The notes beneath the pieces were generated by a model. It searched no databases. It had not been told where the DNA came from and was given only the letters and a program-made list of their open reading frames with translations. A stretch of 23,770 bases of DNA from a virus, in the IMG/VR virus record IMGVR_UViG_3300043469_000558, positions 1 through 23,770 of that record; one strand, 5' to 3'. This document shows positions 9,897-20,163 of this stretch, piece by piece (position 1 is the first letter of the stretch; each line of letters opens with the position of its first letter). Both the position numbers and the translations under genes were made by a program.

Positions 9897-10224
9897 TTGT
9901 AAATAATTTACCTATTCCTTCAATTTGTTTCACTACGTTTTCGTTATTATCGTAATGTGTTTCTATTTTTAAACTTTTAATTTTAGCTATTTTGTTTACA
10001 TTACTACCGGTAGCATAAACTCTACTTAATGGAATATCTAATGCTTTTGCTTTGTTTATCATTCCACTTTTTAAATGCCGTGCAGAAATTATATAAACAT
10101 CGTTACCTTCTTCAATTAATCGTTTAGCTATTTCAGTTCCTTTAGCAGTTGATAAAGTAGAATCGTAATCAAAACTAATTTTTGTTAATTGAACTTTTTT
10201 TTTTCGTCTGCTAAAATCAGTTCT
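9889..10224 (-). CDS. HAD-like hydrolase domain, reached by -1 frameshift from the protease gene
   Basis: The frame is open from 10224 to TAA 9889, but has no ATG, GTG or TTG before the conserved core, so it has no ordinary start. The core from 10194 (101 aa) shows HAD phosphatase landmarks: motif I FDYDSTLS, then GTEIAKRLIEEGNDVYIISA with the Ser of motif II followed by RH, Lys-rich NKIAKIKSL in the motif III place, and HYDNNENVV as the acidic motif IV. Ten A residues at the protease C-terminus put this frame in register by a -1 shift. Fusion would give about 300 aa. HAD proteins usually remove phosphate groups; the short cap-less form gives no substrate. A homopolymer sequencing error is the main alternative to programmed shifting. 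Confidence 0.7.
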   Translation of the reverse strand, partial: RTDFSRRKKKVQLTKISFDYDSTLSTAKGTEIAKRLIEEGNDVYIISARHLKSGMINKAKALDIPLSRVYATGSNVNKIAKIKSLKIETHYDNNENVVKQIEGIGKLFTNE

Positions 10225-10790
10225 TTAATTAATTCAATCAGTTCATCATCTTTAGCTTTTTGAAAATTCATTTCTACTTTGTCGCTAAAATATCCTTCAA
10301 CACTTAAACCTAAATAAGTTCCGTTTTTAACTTCTTTCCAAACTTCATCATTATCAATTTTCATAATAACCGCCCAAGCACCTTCAACTGCATTTAAGTT
10401 ATACAAAGCAGTTTTATCCATTTTAGGATTTTCAACTACCCAAGATTCAATAGTAGAAACACCTTCTGTTTTTTCTTTATGTTCTAAAGTAGCATTATTG
10501 TTTTTTAAATTCTTTAAATACAATTCAGCAGCCTTTCTAACTGTATCTTTTGAAAATGTAATGTTATATTCATAATCACCATTTCTTCTATAAATAAGTT
10601 TATCAGGAACTAAAGCCAAACCTATAATAATTCTCTTTTCATCATCAATAGATTTAAACTCTATTTTGTGCTGATTCAATGCCACAAAGTTTTCCTCTAT
10701 TGCAGGCATCTTTACCAAGCTAATAGCGTCTACACCTTCTTTAATGTTTTCTTCATCAATAAACAATTCTATTGTATCTAATTTACCCAT
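10185..10790 (-). CDS. Prohead protease, XkdF-like
   Basis: 201 aa. Residues 1-40 have the lead-in typical of XkdF-like proteins, IELFIDEENIKEGVDAISLV followed by KMPAIEENFVAL. A beta-rich domain follows with RIIIGLALVPDKLIYR, then the likely catalytic histidine His104 in NATLEHKE, then ESWVVENPKMD, then the likely nucleophile Ser163 in GLSVEGYF. Phage prohead proteases of this group mature the capsid by removing scaffold and sometimes capsid N-termini. The tail is helical and acidic, ending DEKKKFN at the A10 site. It is placed right before HAD, scaffold and capsid genes. Its start overlaps the homing endonuclease stop by 13 nt. Confidence 0.75.
   Translation of the reverse strand: MGKLDTIELFIDEENIKEGVDAISLVKMPAIEENFVALNQHKIEFKSIDDEKRIIIGLALVPDKLIYRRNGDYEYNITFSKDTVRKAAELYLKNLKNNNATLEHKEKTEGVSTIESWVVENPKMDKTALYNLNAVEGAWAVIMKIDNDEVWKEVKNGTYLGLSVEGYFSDKVEMNFQKAKDDELIELIKELILADEKKKFN
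10195..10204 (-). promoter_or_regulatory. A10 slippery site, candidate programmed -1 frameshift
   Basis: On the minus strand the protease codons read GAA AAA AAA AAG, so A-AAA-AAG lies in the correct phase. This is the heptamer used in Escherichia coli dnaX. A -1 slip continues into the HAD frame, while normal reading stops three codons later at 10185. I see no clear stimulatory hairpin or upstream Shine-Dalgarno-like helper. Transcript slippage adding one A in the run would give the same fusion. Confidence 0.6.
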
Positions 10791-11329
10791 TTTAAATTTG
10801 TTTTATTATCTTTTTTATTGTTCAACATTTGACTTAACATAGTATAGCTAATATTATTTAATTCAGCCGCTTTTCTTAATGATTCAAATATTACTTTTGT
10901 TTCTAAATCAATTATTTTTTTATTATTCTTACCTAAACAAGAATTTCGCATATTAGATTTATAACTTTCGTTTTGAGTAAAAGAATAATCTTTATTGTGT
11001 TTGTTATAATCAATTAATCTAATTTTCTTTTTTTGTTTTTCTTCTGCATTTATGTTTGTAGCACCTTCACCACCATCAGTCATATTTACTAAAGTTCCTT
11101 TATCTAAATCTTTCCTTCCGTAAAAAGAAATTAAATCAACTTCTATTTCTTTAGCTAATTCATATTCTATATCGGTAATTAAAATTTGAACTTCATAACC
11201 ATATTTATTTATAGTATTAATCCAATGTTTATTTCTACCATATTTAGAATATGCTCTTTTTTTAGAAACACCTATTCCAATATAAAAAACTTCACCGCAA
11301 GGTTTTAAATGTCTATAAACTAACGCCAT
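10778..11329 (-). CDS. GIY-YIG homing endonuclease with NUMOD1-like tail
   Basis: 183 aa. The nuclease core shows VYRHL (residues 4-8, GIY strand variant), FYIGIG (15-20), Arg25 in KKRAY, an acidic helix with Glu62/Glu64 (KEIEVDLISFYG) and the closing LVNMTDGGEGA (81-90). A basic linker follows, then KKIIDLETKVIFESLRKAAE (137-156) and TMLSQMLNNKK, the pattern of the NUMOD1 DNA-binding module of homing endonucleases. Such genes cut related phage genomes lacking them and spread by repair. It is free-standing, between tape measure and protease genes, and its end overlaps the protease start by 13 nt. No flanking intron or intein is visible. All core residues look present, so it is probably active. 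Confidence 0.88.
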   Translation of the reverse strand: MALVYRHLKPCGEVFYIGIGVSKKRAYSKYGRNKHWINTINKYGYEVQILITDIEYELAKEIEVDLISFYGRKDLDKGTLVNMTDGGEGATNINAEEKQKKKIRLIDYNKHNKDYSFTQNESYKSNMRNSCLGKNNKKIIDLETKVIFESLRKAAELNNISYTMLSQMLNNKKDNKTNLKWVN

Positions 11330-11364: not shown

Positions 11365-12993
11365 TTATCCTAATGTAGCTGAGCGTATTATGTTACGGTC
11401 TAAACTTTGTGCAGTAGTCACGTTATTTGCTACTACATACGCTTGGACAGGTTGTTGTTCTCTATTGCTAATTGCACCTGCTAATTGATTAACTCCCGTT
11501 GCACCTACTACGTTAAATTGTGGAGCAGAACCAGGAGCACCACCACTTGGAGAAGCGCTACCACCTCCACCTGCACTACCCCCACCTACAGCTTGTAATG
11601 CTTTTGCTGTTGAAGCTAATGTGGTTGCTACGCCTAACGCAGTTGTAATATTATTAAACGCTATAACAGGAGCAGCAGAAGCTCCACTTGTAGCAATAGC
11701 TTGTGGAGTTGCTAAAGCACCAATGTTAGCAGCGTTATTAGCCATAATCATTTTAGCTATAGCTATCGCATTTTCAGCTATAATAGCCGCTTTTTGAACT
11801 GCTTTATTTTTACCCGCTACTTCTTTTAAAAATCCAACTGCACCTGAAGCTAAGTTTAATCCTGCTTCTTGTATTGCTCTTTTTTGTTCAAGTTCAGCAG
11901 CAGCAATTGCTATTTTATCTTTAGAAGCCTTTTCTTCATTATCATAAGATATTTTTTGATATTTTAAATTAATATCATTAATTTCATTTGCTTTAGCTAT
12001 TTCTTGTTCAACTGTAGATATTCCTGCCTCTTTTGATTTTGCTATTTTATCATCGTAATTTTTAGCTATTAACTCAAGTTCTTTTTCTTGGTCAGTCATT
12101 AATGCTAAACGATTTCTTTCACGTGCATCTGCTTCAGTTTTTAATAATTCATCATATCTTGCTTCTGCATCTTTTCCTAAATCACTTGCTCTTTTACTTC
12201 TTTCTTCTCGTGCTTTTTCTTCTGCTTCTTTTCTCTTTTTTTCTAATTCAGCTAACCTTTCTAATTCTTTTTTTCTTAATTCAGCACGTTTTTCAGCTTC
12301 TTCTTTTTCAGCTTTAGTCATTTCTTTTGTGCCTGAAACAAATCTTTTAGAAGCATCATCATAGTTTTTACTAAATGATGTTACTGATTTTTTTGCATCT
12401 TCCCAAGCACCGCTAAAATCACCTGAAATTAATTTCTTTACTGCACCACCCAACATTCCCAAAGACTGAAATACCGCAGTAACACTTGAATAAACTACGT
12501 TAAAAGCTTGGGAAACGTAAGGCAATGCTTTTAAAGCTAAATCTACTAATATGTTAAACAAAGGTTCAACTACACGAAATATTCCTTGAAATATTTTTTC
12601 CATTCCTTCTAATAATGGTTGTAGTTTTTTCATTGCTACTTCATTATCTTGGAATGCTTTTACTAATCCACCAATAACTGCTACTATTAAACCAATTACA
12701 GAAGCCTTTAAAGCACCATTAAAGGAACTAAATGTTCTTTCAGCATTACGTATGCCTTGACCCAACATACCTAATGGTCCTGAAGCATTTTCTAATTGCC
12801 CAAGAAAATCATCATTTGTAGCTTTAGCATCAGATATGGCATCATCCATATCACGTATTTGAGCAGAAATTTTATTAAATTCAGAACTACCTGCAGCTGT
12901 TTCTTTTAACTGCTTTTTTAATTCTCTTAAATTCTGAATTGTTGGCTCTAAATTACTTTTTACTTCTAAGTCAACTTCTATTTTTTCTGCCAT
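11365..12993 (-). CDS. Tail tape measure protein
   Basis: 542 aa, short for the family. The N-terminus is helical (VDLEVKSNLEPTIQNLRELK), then there is a hydrophobic stretch with SVIGLIVAVIGGLVKAF (about 96-112) and further amphipathic helices. A long charged coiled coil rich in Lys/Glu/Ala runs about 220-370 (KAEKEEAEKRAELRKKELER and so on). The C-terminal region has Ala-rich segments with AEN-AIAIAKMIMANNAA, then a Gly/Ser-rich linker and a final Asn-rich strand segment. The sequence is typical of short Bacteroidota siphophage tape measures, which fix tail length and help DNA entry. At roughly 1.5 A per residue this would give a tail near 80 nm. It lies after the two large baseplate-like genes, the reverse of the usual order. 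Confidence 0.85.
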   Translation of the reverse strand: MAEKIEVDLEVKSNLEPTIQNLRELKKQLKETAAGSSEFNKISAQIRDMDDAISDAKATNDDFLGQLENASGPLGMLGQGIRNAERTFSSFNGALKASVIGLIVAVIGGLVKAFQDNEVAMKKLQPLLEGMEKIFQGIFRVVEPLFNILVDLALKALPYVSQAFNVVYSSVTAVFQSLGMLGGAVKKLISGDFSGAWEDAKKSVTSFSKNYDDASKRFVSGTKEMTKAEKEEAEKRAELRKKELERLAELEKKRKEAEEKAREERSKRASDLGKDAEARYDELLKTEADARERNRLALMTDQEKELELIAKNYDDKIAKSKEAGISTVEQEIAKANEINDINLKYQKISYDNEEKASKDKIAIAAAELEQKRAIQEAGLNLASGAVGFLKEVAGKNKAVQKAAIIAENAIAIAKMIMANNAANIGALATPQAIATSGASAAPVIAFNNITTALGVATTLASTAKALQAVGGGSAGGGGSASPSGGAPGSAPQFNVVGATGVNQLAGAISNREQQPVQAYVVANNVTTAQSLDRNIIRSATLG

Positions 12994-17158: not shown

Positions 17159-17619
17159 TAACAGATAGTAGTGTTATTTGCAGTTTCTACATTTAATGTA
17201 ATTGTCCATCCTACTAACTTATTTTCAAATCTATCAGCAAATGCTTCAAAGCTAATGCTACCATTTAATCTAAAACCCATATCGTACAAATTGCCTCTAC
17301 GTAAACTCGCAATCAATCGTTTACCAACTTCTAACTGAGTGTTGAATATATCCTGTTCATTGTCATTGTCTAACCAAATATCAGTTGAATTAGCTTTAGA
17401 TATATCGCACACATCCATAAGCAAAATAGAAACGTTAAATATATTTGTGTTTCCTGATTCAGATTCTGTTACATTGTTTACAATAATATGCGACAAAGGG
17501 AATATAGTAGTTTTGTTTAAATCGACATTGAATATATCACCGGTAGTTACATTGTTTACTATTCCATCTTCGTAGAGTGAATCTCTTAATACTTCGGTTA
17601 CTTTATAATATTGGTTCAT
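17158..17619 (-). CDS. Tail terminator-like protein (153 aa)
   Basis: 153 aa beginning MNQYYKVTEVLRDSLYEDG and containing NVTTGDIFNVDLNKTTIFPL, SHIIVNNVTESESG, and a C-terminal GWTITLNVETANNTTI. The plan of a helical start and a beta sandwich with ligand-like middle resembles tail terminator proteins of siphophages, which cap the tube. The support is position: it lies between the tail chaperone frame (1-nt overlap at 17619) and the gp10-like gene. No family signature is strong enough to be sure. Confidence 0.5.
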   Translation of the reverse strand: MNQYYKVTEVLRDSLYEDGIVNNVTTGDIFNVDLNKTTIFPLSHIIVNNVTESESGNTNIFNVSILLMDVCDISKANSTDIWLDNDNEQDIFNTQLEVGKRLIASLRRGNLYDMGFRLNGSISFEAFADRFENKLVGWTITLNVETANNTTIC

Positions 17620-17867
17620 TACTTTCTAATTTGTTGTATTTCTATTTCGTTCTTTTCTTTTTCGAATGTTAAAAATGTTAAGCAAGTTGTAAGTCGTAAT
17701 TGGGAAACTTCGTCAAATCTTCTAACATCTCCCTGAGCAAGGCCATAGTAGGAACTATACCAACCCCACTTTTTTCCAAACTGTGCTTGTCTATCAAATC
17801 CATCAGCTGCTTGTCCGTCTCCAAATAATTCAGGGTAGAGTTCAGTAACGCGTTGCCTAAATTGTAA
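17619..17867 (-). CDS. -1 frame extension of the tail assembly chaperone (82 aa)
   Basis: After codon 163 of the chaperone gene, a -1 shift at the T9 run opens 82 codons ending in TAA 17619, overlapping the next start by 1 nt. The protein text is convincing: LQFRQRVTELYPELFGDGQA, then FGKKWGWYSSYYGLAQGDVR, then LRLTTCLTFLTFEKEKNEIE. The pattern KKWGWYxSxYxLAxGD and LTFLxFEKEKxEIE fits the second part of Bacteroidota tail assembly chaperones. The 0 frame over the same DNA also encodes plausible protein, so the region is dual-coding. The fusion would be 245 aa, equivalent to lambda gpGT made with gpG. Confidence 0.8.
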   Translation of the reverse strand, partial: LQFRQRVTELYPELFGDGQAADGFDRQAQFGKKWGWYSSYYGLAQGDVRRFDEVSQLRLTTCLTFLTFEKEKNEIEIQQIRK

Positions 17868-18355
17868 AAAAAAACCATAGCACCTAATGCAACTTCTAAT
17901 GGCATATCTAACATAGCATCAGAATACGCAGCAGAACCTTTATATTCTTCTATCAGGTACTTCTTATTCAGTTTGTTTATTACAGGTCTGTAAAGAACTG
18001 CCATAGCTTTGTGCATATTATCCCAATCAGAAATGTATGTTTCTAAATCGGTATATTCTCCTAAGCTTATTTCATCTAAATTAGGAATGAATCCAAATTC
18101 TAAACCTTTGTGTTTAAATGTTTGAGTTAACTTATAACTACCGGTAAACATTTCACCTAACTTATTCGTAATCGTTGTAATATCTTTTAACTTCATTAGC
18201 GATATTTCTTTTAACGATACACCACAAAATATTTCTATCATCTTGTGCTGCAAAAATTCGCCCTCAGGATTATCTTTAGCTATACGTGTGAATCTTTGGT
18301 ACTGTTCTAATGTTATTTCGTTTAAAGATGTTGGTATAGATATTTCTAACTTCAT
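17678..18355 (-). CDS. Tail assembly chaperone, 0-frame product (gpG-like)
   Basis: 225 aa, starting MKLEISIPTSLNEITLEQY. The first 163 residues are predicted helical with EYTDLETYISDW and MPLEVALGAMVFF, common to Bacteroidota phage tail chaperones that bind the tape measure during tail assembly. Residues 164-225 (YNLGNALLNSTLNYLET to the stop) are read only without frameshifting; the alternative product switches to the -1 frame at the T9 run. In lambda the ratio of the two forms sets correct tail assembly. Two products from one gene upstream of tail genes is the classical arrangement, though the tape measure here is five genes further on. The stop lies 60 nt before the terminator-like gene. 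Confidence 0.75.
   Translation of the reverse strand: MKLEISIPTSLNEITLEQYQRFTRIAKDNPEGEFLQHKMIEIFCGVSLKEISLMKLKDITTITNKLGEMFTGSYKLTQTFKHKGLEFGFIPNLDEISLGEYTDLETYISDWDNMHKAMAVLYRPVINKLNKKYLIEEYKGSAAYSDAMLDMPLEVALGAMVFFYNLGNALLNSTLNYLETDKQLMDLIDKHSLEKSGVGIVPTMALLREMLEDLTKFPNYDLQLA
17866..17874 (-). promoter_or_regulatory. T9 slippery site of the tail chaperone gene
   Basis: Minus-strand codons read GTT TTT TTT TAC (Val161-Phe-Phe-Tyr164), giving the in-phase heptamer T-TTT-TTT. A -1 slip moves into the frame encoding the 82-aa extension. The upstream part of the -1 frame (Cys/Arg-rich) does not look like protein, so the switch should be at this run and not earlier. No obvious hairpin follows. 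Confidence 0.7.
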
Positions 18356-18805: not shown

Positions 18806-18955
18806 TTAACTACTTAAATAAGCACTTGCTATTTCGTACATCTTATGCATCTTCTTTATTTCACCAATATTTCTTGGTAAAGCTATATCTACTTCTACAC
18901 CTTTAACGTGATGTATGTAGCATTGTATAGTAGCTATGAATTGTCCGTATGTCAT
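18806..18955 (-). CDS. Small protein translationally coupled to the terminase (49 aa)
   Basis: Frame from ATG 18955 to TAA 18806; it starts MTYGQFIATIQCYIHHVKG and ends MHKMYEIASAYLSS. The start shares one base with the stop of the large terminase (TAATG), a typical coupled junction. The product is small, helical, with an HH pair and Cys12. No function recognised; it might help terminase, but position alone supports this. Confidence 0.6.
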   Translation of the reverse strand: MTYGQFIATIQCYIHHVKGVEVDIALPRNIGEIKKMHKMYEIASAYLSS

Positions 18956-20163
18956 TAGTAGACAAAGTAATTACCCTTGTTTTTATTTTCTAATTGGTAA
19001 GTAACGCAGTATCGAAGTGGGTCCAATAAATGGTTGTGCGCATCTTGTGGAGTTTTAGACTTCTTTTCTAACCAACAGTAGTTATTTAGTTCCCTGATTA
19101 AATTAATAGATTCAGGTGATACTATCAAATCGTAATCTTGTAAAATGCTAATACCATACGTTACTGAATCAGGACCTTTAACTGCAGGTACAATATTTAA
19201 ACCTAATGCTTGTAGTTCACTAATCAATCTCGGTTCTGCTGAATCAGCAACTATTAAAGCATCGTTTGCGTGCTGCTTGTTTAAACTGTATATCTGTGAT
19301 GTTGTTAAACCTTTTAAGTAAAACCTTTCGTTAATGTAAATACGTTTGTTAGATGTATCTATATTGCATTCTAATAATGTTGATTCATCTGCTGCAAATC
19401 CGTAATCCTGCCCAAAGATAGATTTACCTATTTGTTTGTATTCGCCTATAGTCCAATTAGTAAATATAACTCCTTCTGCTTTGTCCATCCATCCACCTAA
19501 GATTTGGTGGTTGTACTTTTCAGGCCTTCTTTGTTTTATGTTCTCTATCTGTGTTATAAATGATTCAGATAGGTTTTCTATATTATCTAAGTATGTAGTG
19601 TGAATATAAGTAGTATCACCTTTTATTAAATTGCTTCCTGCTTGTACACCTTTATCTTCAAAGAACTTTTTATAAATGAAGTGTTCTTTTGTTGCAGGAT
19701 TTAACACCAATAAAACCCTATTGTGTATGCCTTTTGTTCTTATACTAAAATCAATCTTTTCAAATGTTTCTTCATCTGTTAGTTCTTCTGCTTCATCTAA
19801 CACCCAAGTTGTAACTCCTGCTAAAGATTTAAGTGAAGCAGTTTGTGTACCACTACTTGTTTTAATGCCTTTAAATAGAATCTTAGAACCTGTTTTAAGA
19901 TTTACTATTTCATCCTTAGTTATATAAAAATCGTTGCTTAAATCAGCTCTTTCAATCTTATCTATAAATTCGGGAATAATAGAAACGTTTGCAGAAGTTA
20001 AAGTGTAACGTGTAAATAATATAACGTGTCCTGATTCATAAGTAAGCAATAGTAAAAAGGAATTAAGGGAATATGATTTACCACTTCCCCTTCCACCTGT
20101 AATTACAAAGTACCTACTATCTGAACCAAGTAAATTATATTTCTGATTTATTGCTATTCCCAA
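18955..20163 (-). CDS. terL: Terminase large subunit (ATPase and nuclease)
   Basis: 402 aa, complete for the family. Walker A GGRGSGKS at residues 23-30, Walker B TTWVLDEAEE with Asp123-Glu124, and coupling motif LVLNPAT at 152-158. The C-terminal nuclease has the acidic metal-binding residues Asp253 (FGQDYGF), Asp307 (IVADSAE) and Asp381 (LDPLRY), with the final DPLRY-CVTY typical of Terminase_3 proteins. It pumps DNA through the portal and cuts the genome end. It overlaps the small subunit by 29 nt. All catalytic positions look intact. Confidence 0.95.
   Translation of the reverse strand: MGIAINQKYNLLGSDSRYFVITGGRGSGKSYSLNSFLLLLTYESGHVILFTRYTLTSANVSIIPEFIDKIERADLSNDFYITKDEIVNLKTGSKILFKGIKTSSGTQTASLKSLAGVTTWVLDEAEELTDEETFEKIDFSIRTKGIHNRVLLVLNPATKEHFIYKKFFEDKGVQAGSNLIKGDTTYIHTTYLDNIENLSESFITQIENIKQRRPEKYNHQILGGWMDKAEGVIFTNWTIGEYKQIGKSIFGQDYGFAADESTLLECNIDTSNKRIYINERFYLKGLTTSQIYSLNKQHANDALIVADSAEPRLISELQALGLNIVPAVKGPDSVTYGISILQDYDLIVSPESINLIRELNNYCWLEKKSKTPQDAHNHLLDPLRYCVTYQLENKNKGNYFVY

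Follow-up and report, generated by a model that had tools for sequence, protein, structure and literature searches.

Alternative reading frames at a T run in a viral gene

The locus described here raises the question of how a single viral gene could give rise to two proteins with different C-terminal ends, and whether both of these ends are maintained by selection. The gene is encoded on the minus strand of an IMG/VR virus record of 23,770 bases, the whole of which was analyzed and is referred to below as the window. It contains an unbroken run of nine T (T9), which opens an alternative -1 frame while the original (0) frame continues for 62 codons beyond the slip (Table 1). The initial annotation had described an in-phase T-TTT-TTT at codons 161-163, an 82-codon -1 frame extending to the next gene start, and a 0 frame of 62 codons ending at 17678; every one of these coordinates was confirmed. 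The 225-aa unshifted product and the predicted 245-aa shifted product have residues 1-163 in common, and base 17619 belongs to both the stop of the -1 frame and the ATG of the next gene (TAATG overlap).

Table 1. Features of the slip gene and of its surroundings in the window
Feature	Positions	Strand	Basis
0-frame ORF, unshifted (putative gpG-like) product, 225 aa	17678..18355	minus	ORF translation; homologues in all 161 loci
T9 slip run, GTT TTT TTT TAC at codons 161-164	17866..17874	minus	sequence
Slippery heptamer T_TTT_TTT, in phase	17873..17867	minus	sequence
-1 frame extension, putative gpT-like C-terminal domain of the shifted product, 82 aa	17622..17867	minus	
Stop of the -1 frame, TAA	17621-17619	minus	
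Early overlap, ~22 codons, amino-acid constraint in both frames	17801..17866	minus	substitution classes, model
Late overlap, ~40 codons, -1 strongly constrained, 0 frame weakly constrained but stop-free	17678..17800	minus	
Next gene, 153 aa	17158..17619	minus	downstream in 123/123 loci long enough to test
Terminase large subunit	18955..20163	minus	Pfam Terminase_3, E 5.9e-29; upstream in 114/114 testable loci
Probable tape measure protein, same tail cluster, non-adjacent	11365..12993	minus	phrog_1538 tape measure, E 5.7e-5

In related loci, the gene order terminase, slip gene, 153 aa, 180 aa, and 366 aa is conserved, and the ATG of the next gene is found within about 15 nt of the -1 stop in nearly all cases. 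Two other features of the window were observed at a distance from the slip gene. A 183-aa protein encoded at 10778-11329, between the tape measure gene and the genes after it, resembles by eye what we take to be a GIY-YIG-type homing endonuclease. A run of ten A (10195-10204, minus strand) lies in the last codons of the gene at 10790..10185 and may be a slip site or a chance occurrence.

Conservation of the run and of both frames in homologues

Homologues were collected using either the -1 peptide (293 viral loci) or the 0-frame protein (at least 593 viral loci) as the sole query. Both frames are carried by 161 of 161 loci, including 80 that were picked by the 0 frame only, and none of the loci retrieved by the 0-frame protein alone lacks the -1 domain. 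The heptamer TTTTTTT occurs in phase and at the same place in all 129 distinct loci, 126 of which have nine and three of which have ten T in the run; the -1 extension in these loci is usually 79-93 aa long, and the 0-frame tail comprises 47-92 codons. Viral contigs and bacterial MAGs together provided approximately 180 distinct sequences covering the site; their runs are T9 or, in a few cases, T10 and never shorter, and in all of them the run is followed by the -1 domain FGxKWGWYSSxYxLAxGD...FEKEKNEIE. The run is broken in none of the homologues and their -1 frames are free of stops, as the initial annotation of a frameshift site would lead one to expect. Conservation of the -1 frame starts directly after the run. 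Upstream in the same reading frame, an in-phase TTTTTTT was found at none of the 5,452 codon positions of 35 representatives. Other A or T runs of at least nine were rarer in 186 kb of related loci than expected from a third-order Markov model (7 vs. 17).

Distant relatives were found starting from the Nonlabens phage P12024S, together with seven MAG contigs, and all of those whose contigs reach the site keep the run. Short 0-frame tails occur among these relatives, namely 16 codons (L172), 25 codons (P12024S), and 39 codons (L169), and the tail length across the family is 16 to 92 codons. The relatives occur in Flavobacteriaceae, Winogradskyella, and Flavobacterium MAG bins and in Nonlabens phages. 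The L169 homologue comes from a MAG labelled Pseudooceanicola, an alphaproteobacterium, whereas the other named relatives are in Bacteroidota bins or phages; this label is probably a binning error. Overall, the comparison of these sequences shows that the slip run is conserved, that the -1 frame starting at it is open and constrained, and that both frames are under selection.

Possible ribosomal or transcriptional slippage

Genes of the tail chaperone G/GT type usually rely on a -1 ribosomal slip, with a shifted product that amounts to a few percent and is needed for tails, and with products that are absent from the virion. The locus studied here probably makes its two products of near-equal size in the same way, as gpG/gpGT-like tail-assembly chaperones, with the shift, its rate, its ribosomal nature, and the role of the products all forming part of this proposal. 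Most translation would remain in frame and yield the gpG-like product, while a fraction of ribosomes would shift by -1 on T_TTT_TTT to yield the gpGT-like product, which would end in a different, highly conserved domain of 82 residues. If the two proteins act as their counterparts do in phage lambda, the unshifted one would coat the tape measure protein, the shifted one would recruit the tail tube protein, and the shift rate would set the ratio of the two. The T_TTT_TTY class of heptamers is efficient in E. coli (PMC4066793), although T_TTT_TTT was much less shifty there than A_AAA_AAG (PMC5009743).

Ribosomal slippage is ranked first on the strength of precedent, with transcriptional slippage as a serious rival. 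RNA polymerase slipping on T9 would add one U to some of the mRNAs, placing translation in the -1 frame and giving an identical fusion protein, and we regard this as possible. According to a recoding review (PMC5009743), nine consecutive A or T are enough for the polymerase to slip efficiently in vivo, and a homopolymer of at least nine A or T, as expected for programmed transcriptional slippage, is found in every sequence as T9 or T10, while ribosomal slippage needs seven. Moreover, no stimulatory RNA structure was found downstream of the slip, where folding energies were no different from those of shuffled sequences.

A natural test between the two mechanisms is offered by the eighth T of the run, a base that can be changed silently in both proteins. 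A C at this position would leave both proteins unchanged (Phe TTC; Leu CTA/CTG) and produce U_UU.U_UU.C, which works as a slip motif in E. coli (PMC4066793), yet none of the sequences has it. Elsewhere in the slip gene TTC accounts for 26% of Phe codons, and CTA/CTG account for 30% of the NTA/NTG Leu codons in the -1 frame. The lack of any C at this position in 35 representatives, against 26-30% expected, would have a probability of about 1e-5 for independent representatives, whereas these are only partly independent. Since ribosomal slippage does not obviously require that the eighth T never be C, and the heptamer would still be slippery, this observation counts against the ribosomal reading and keeps RNA-polymerase slippage among the possible mechanisms. 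On the other hand, the first and the ninth T are set by amino acids (V/I/L/F before and Y/W/F/L after), so that the length of nine is partly explained by the proteins and these two end positions are uninformative, and in these hosts the shift rate on T_TTT_TTT may be better than that on T_TTT_TTC. In addition, known tail chaperones use ribosomal slippage, and a literature search found none that uses transcriptional slippage. The combined proposal of polymerase slippage on T9 with both alternative C-termini as functional domains encoded by the same DNA, in a tail-assembly chaperone family, appears doubtful.

Selection on both frames past the slip

The openness of the two frames was assessed by resampling synonymous codons under the codon use of the phage while keeping the protein of one frame, in 35 representatives with less than 85% nucleotide identity. 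With the -1 protein kept, the 0 frame stayed open as far as observed with a mean P of 0.012 per locus; with the 0-frame protein kept, the -1 frame stayed open with a mean P of 0.003. For the late part (codon 21 onward), the 0-frame P averages 0.039 and is below 0.05 in 26 of the 35 loci. These P values are not to be multiplied because the representatives are related. The null model was calibrated on the two other frames of the single-coding region (584 and 594 stops vs. 604 and 605 expected), on the -1-only region (86 vs. 74 expected), and on the third frame of the late overlap (182 vs. 181 expected). The 0 frame of the late overlap has no stops against about 96 expected, a zero that is partly so by definition, and the per-locus P values are thus the fair measure of stop avoidance. 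The open frames past the slip are not due to chance.

Nucleotide differences in 53 disjoint homologue pairs with equal tail lengths were further classed by their effect in each frame. Relative to doubly silent changes, 0-frame-only changes in the overlap occur at a ratio of 0.20 (0.14-0.27), compared with 0.97 where the 0 frame has ended. The omega-like ratio of the -1 frame, expected by the initial annotation to be low in relatives, is 0.13 in the overlap (95% interval 0.09-0.17) and 0.79 upstream, where this frame is non-coding; the -1 extension is therefore under selection as a protein. Because the doubly silent class is small (37 changes), the single-coding synonymous rate served as a second reference; measured against it, the 0 frame stands at 0.48 and the -1 frame at 0.31 across the full overlap. 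As judged by these substitution patterns, both frames are under selection in the overlap.

The constraint is distributed unevenly along the overlap. In its early part, 0-frame-only changes occur at 0.17 and -1-only changes at 0.41 of the neutral rate; up to approximately codon 22, the 0 frame changes at 0.006-0.012 per opportunity vs. about 0.056-0.066 for neutral sites, and the -1 frame is moderately held. Doubly silent sites in this part change fast, so a constraint on the RNA itself is an unlikely reason. Past approximately codon 22, tight constraint passes to the -1 frame and the 0 frame climbs toward neutrality, with a 0-frame-only rate of 0.57-0.70 of neutral, close to what is seen once the 0 frame has ended. 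These patterns amount to a hand-over, in which the 0-frame protein is held first and the -1 protein after about codon 22. Selection on both products, as initially proposed, thus stands for the two frames, but strong amino-acid constraint on the 0 frame is confined to some 22 codons and is weak thereafter. At this locus, dual coding with a hand-over between frames has been measured, and two alternative tails both selected over part of the same DNA are unusual.

The weak late constraint, along with the variable length of the 0-frame tail across the family, would suit an arrangement in which function past the slip lies with the -1 frame alone and the 0-frame tail shadows it passively. We consider this improbable: strong 0-frame constraint over the first ~22 codons largely refutes it for the early part, stops are avoided in the late part according to the per-locus P values, and among 60 pairs taken without the equal-tail rule the 0-frame end is the same in 51 and differs within the last 2-11 codons in the others. 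A pair of distinct overlapping genes, with an independent start for the second, would correspond to the annotation of P12024S, where gp39 begins at an internal ATG in the -1 frame. Such an arrangement is very improbable, given that the -1 frame has no conserved start codon (ATG in one of 35 extensions and none upstream), that its conservation begins right at the end of the T run, and that the run is invariant, P12024S included. Finally, homopolymers of nine are error-prone on some sequencing platforms, but a sequencing or assembly error is refuted by the same run in the ~180 distinct sequences, which come from many metagenomes, an isolate phage, and MAGs, since a run present in every covered locus is no homopolymer error of one assembly.

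Predicted structure and identity of the proteins

The structural model of the 0-frame protein has a mean pLDDT of 80 and includes a helix (residues 153-180) that crosses the slip point, the remaining tail being of low confidence. The constrained early 0-frame tail would thus complete this helix, in line with the shortest natural tails of 16 and 25 codons. The -1 domain alone was modelled poorly by AlphaFold (pLDDT 60).

The tail protein profile phrog_166 weakly matches 16 of the 35 members (best E 6e-4), Foldseek weakly matched a protein that bears the name tail assembly chaperone (E 0.055, probability 0.97), and Phage_TAC_7 weakly matches one member (E 0.12). No Pfam chaperone match exceeded the threshold, and PDB sequence and fold searches gave no usable match. 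The VIA matches, mainly to helical residues 162-225 with Z under 6, were set aside. In Flavobacterium phage 6H, one of the Foldseek matches, the gene inspected shows no slip with long overlap of this kind; it was presumed from its length to encode the matched protein. A literature search on tail-chaperone frameshifts in Flavobacterium or Bacteroidetes phages found nothing in the collection of papers covered. Based on the layout, the gene neighbourhood, and the weak profile and fold matches, we infer a tail-assembly chaperone pair of the gpG/gpGT type. The name tail chaperone given initially agrees with this evidence, but direct comparison detected no similarity to lambda G, lambda T, or HK022 gp13.

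Comparison with known frame-changing systems

The lambda gpG/gpGT proteins are tail assembly chaperones made by a -1 ribosomal frameshift on G_GGA_AAG. Like the locus studied here, they have a shared N-terminal part, a -1 extension into a second domain, an extended product that stops at the next gene, and a place in a tail gene cluster. In contrast, lambda has only 5 codons of the 0 frame after the slip vs. 62 here, and its gene adjoins the tape measure gene, whereas four genes separate our slip gene from the tape measure gene, which lies farther downstream on the same strand. The P2 gpE/gpE+E' pair (T_TTT_TTG) also combines a T-rich heptamer with a -1 extension, but it has 6 codons of the 0 frame after the slip and a heptamer ending in G rather than an unbroken T_TTT_TTT; in TM4 the 0 frame continues for 7 codons. 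The slippery site with its open -1 extension is thus found here farther from the 0-frame stop than in lambda or P2, within a small, hand-picked set of comparators (lambda, P2, TM4, and HK022).

The long overlap, at first contrasted with lambda, is indeed unlike lambda but is not unique. In HK022 gp13/gp14, the slip on G_GGA_AAG is followed by 48 codons of the 0 frame, which gives the long overlap a precedent, although the HK022 tail is a Ser/Lys-rich low-complexity sequence. The features that distinguish our locus are the tested dual selection, the T9 run, and the near-equal products.

A true homologue is present in the Nonlabens phages P12024S/L (gp38 and gp39; genus Inhavirus), with T9 and the same -1 domain directly behind the terminase, but with a 0-frame tail of only 25 codons and an annotation as two separate hypothetical genes. 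The deposited annotation of P12024S (L162:6001-6695) splits one frame-changed gene into two. The G/GT strategy of frame change would extend to a large, mostly uncultivated phage group, in which the gene is annotated as hypothetical even in an isolate phage. Outside phages, a T9 run changes the frame of Thermus thermophilus dnaX, a cellular gene in which T9 is used productively for transcriptional slippage, a mechanism that is only possible at our locus (PMC5009743).
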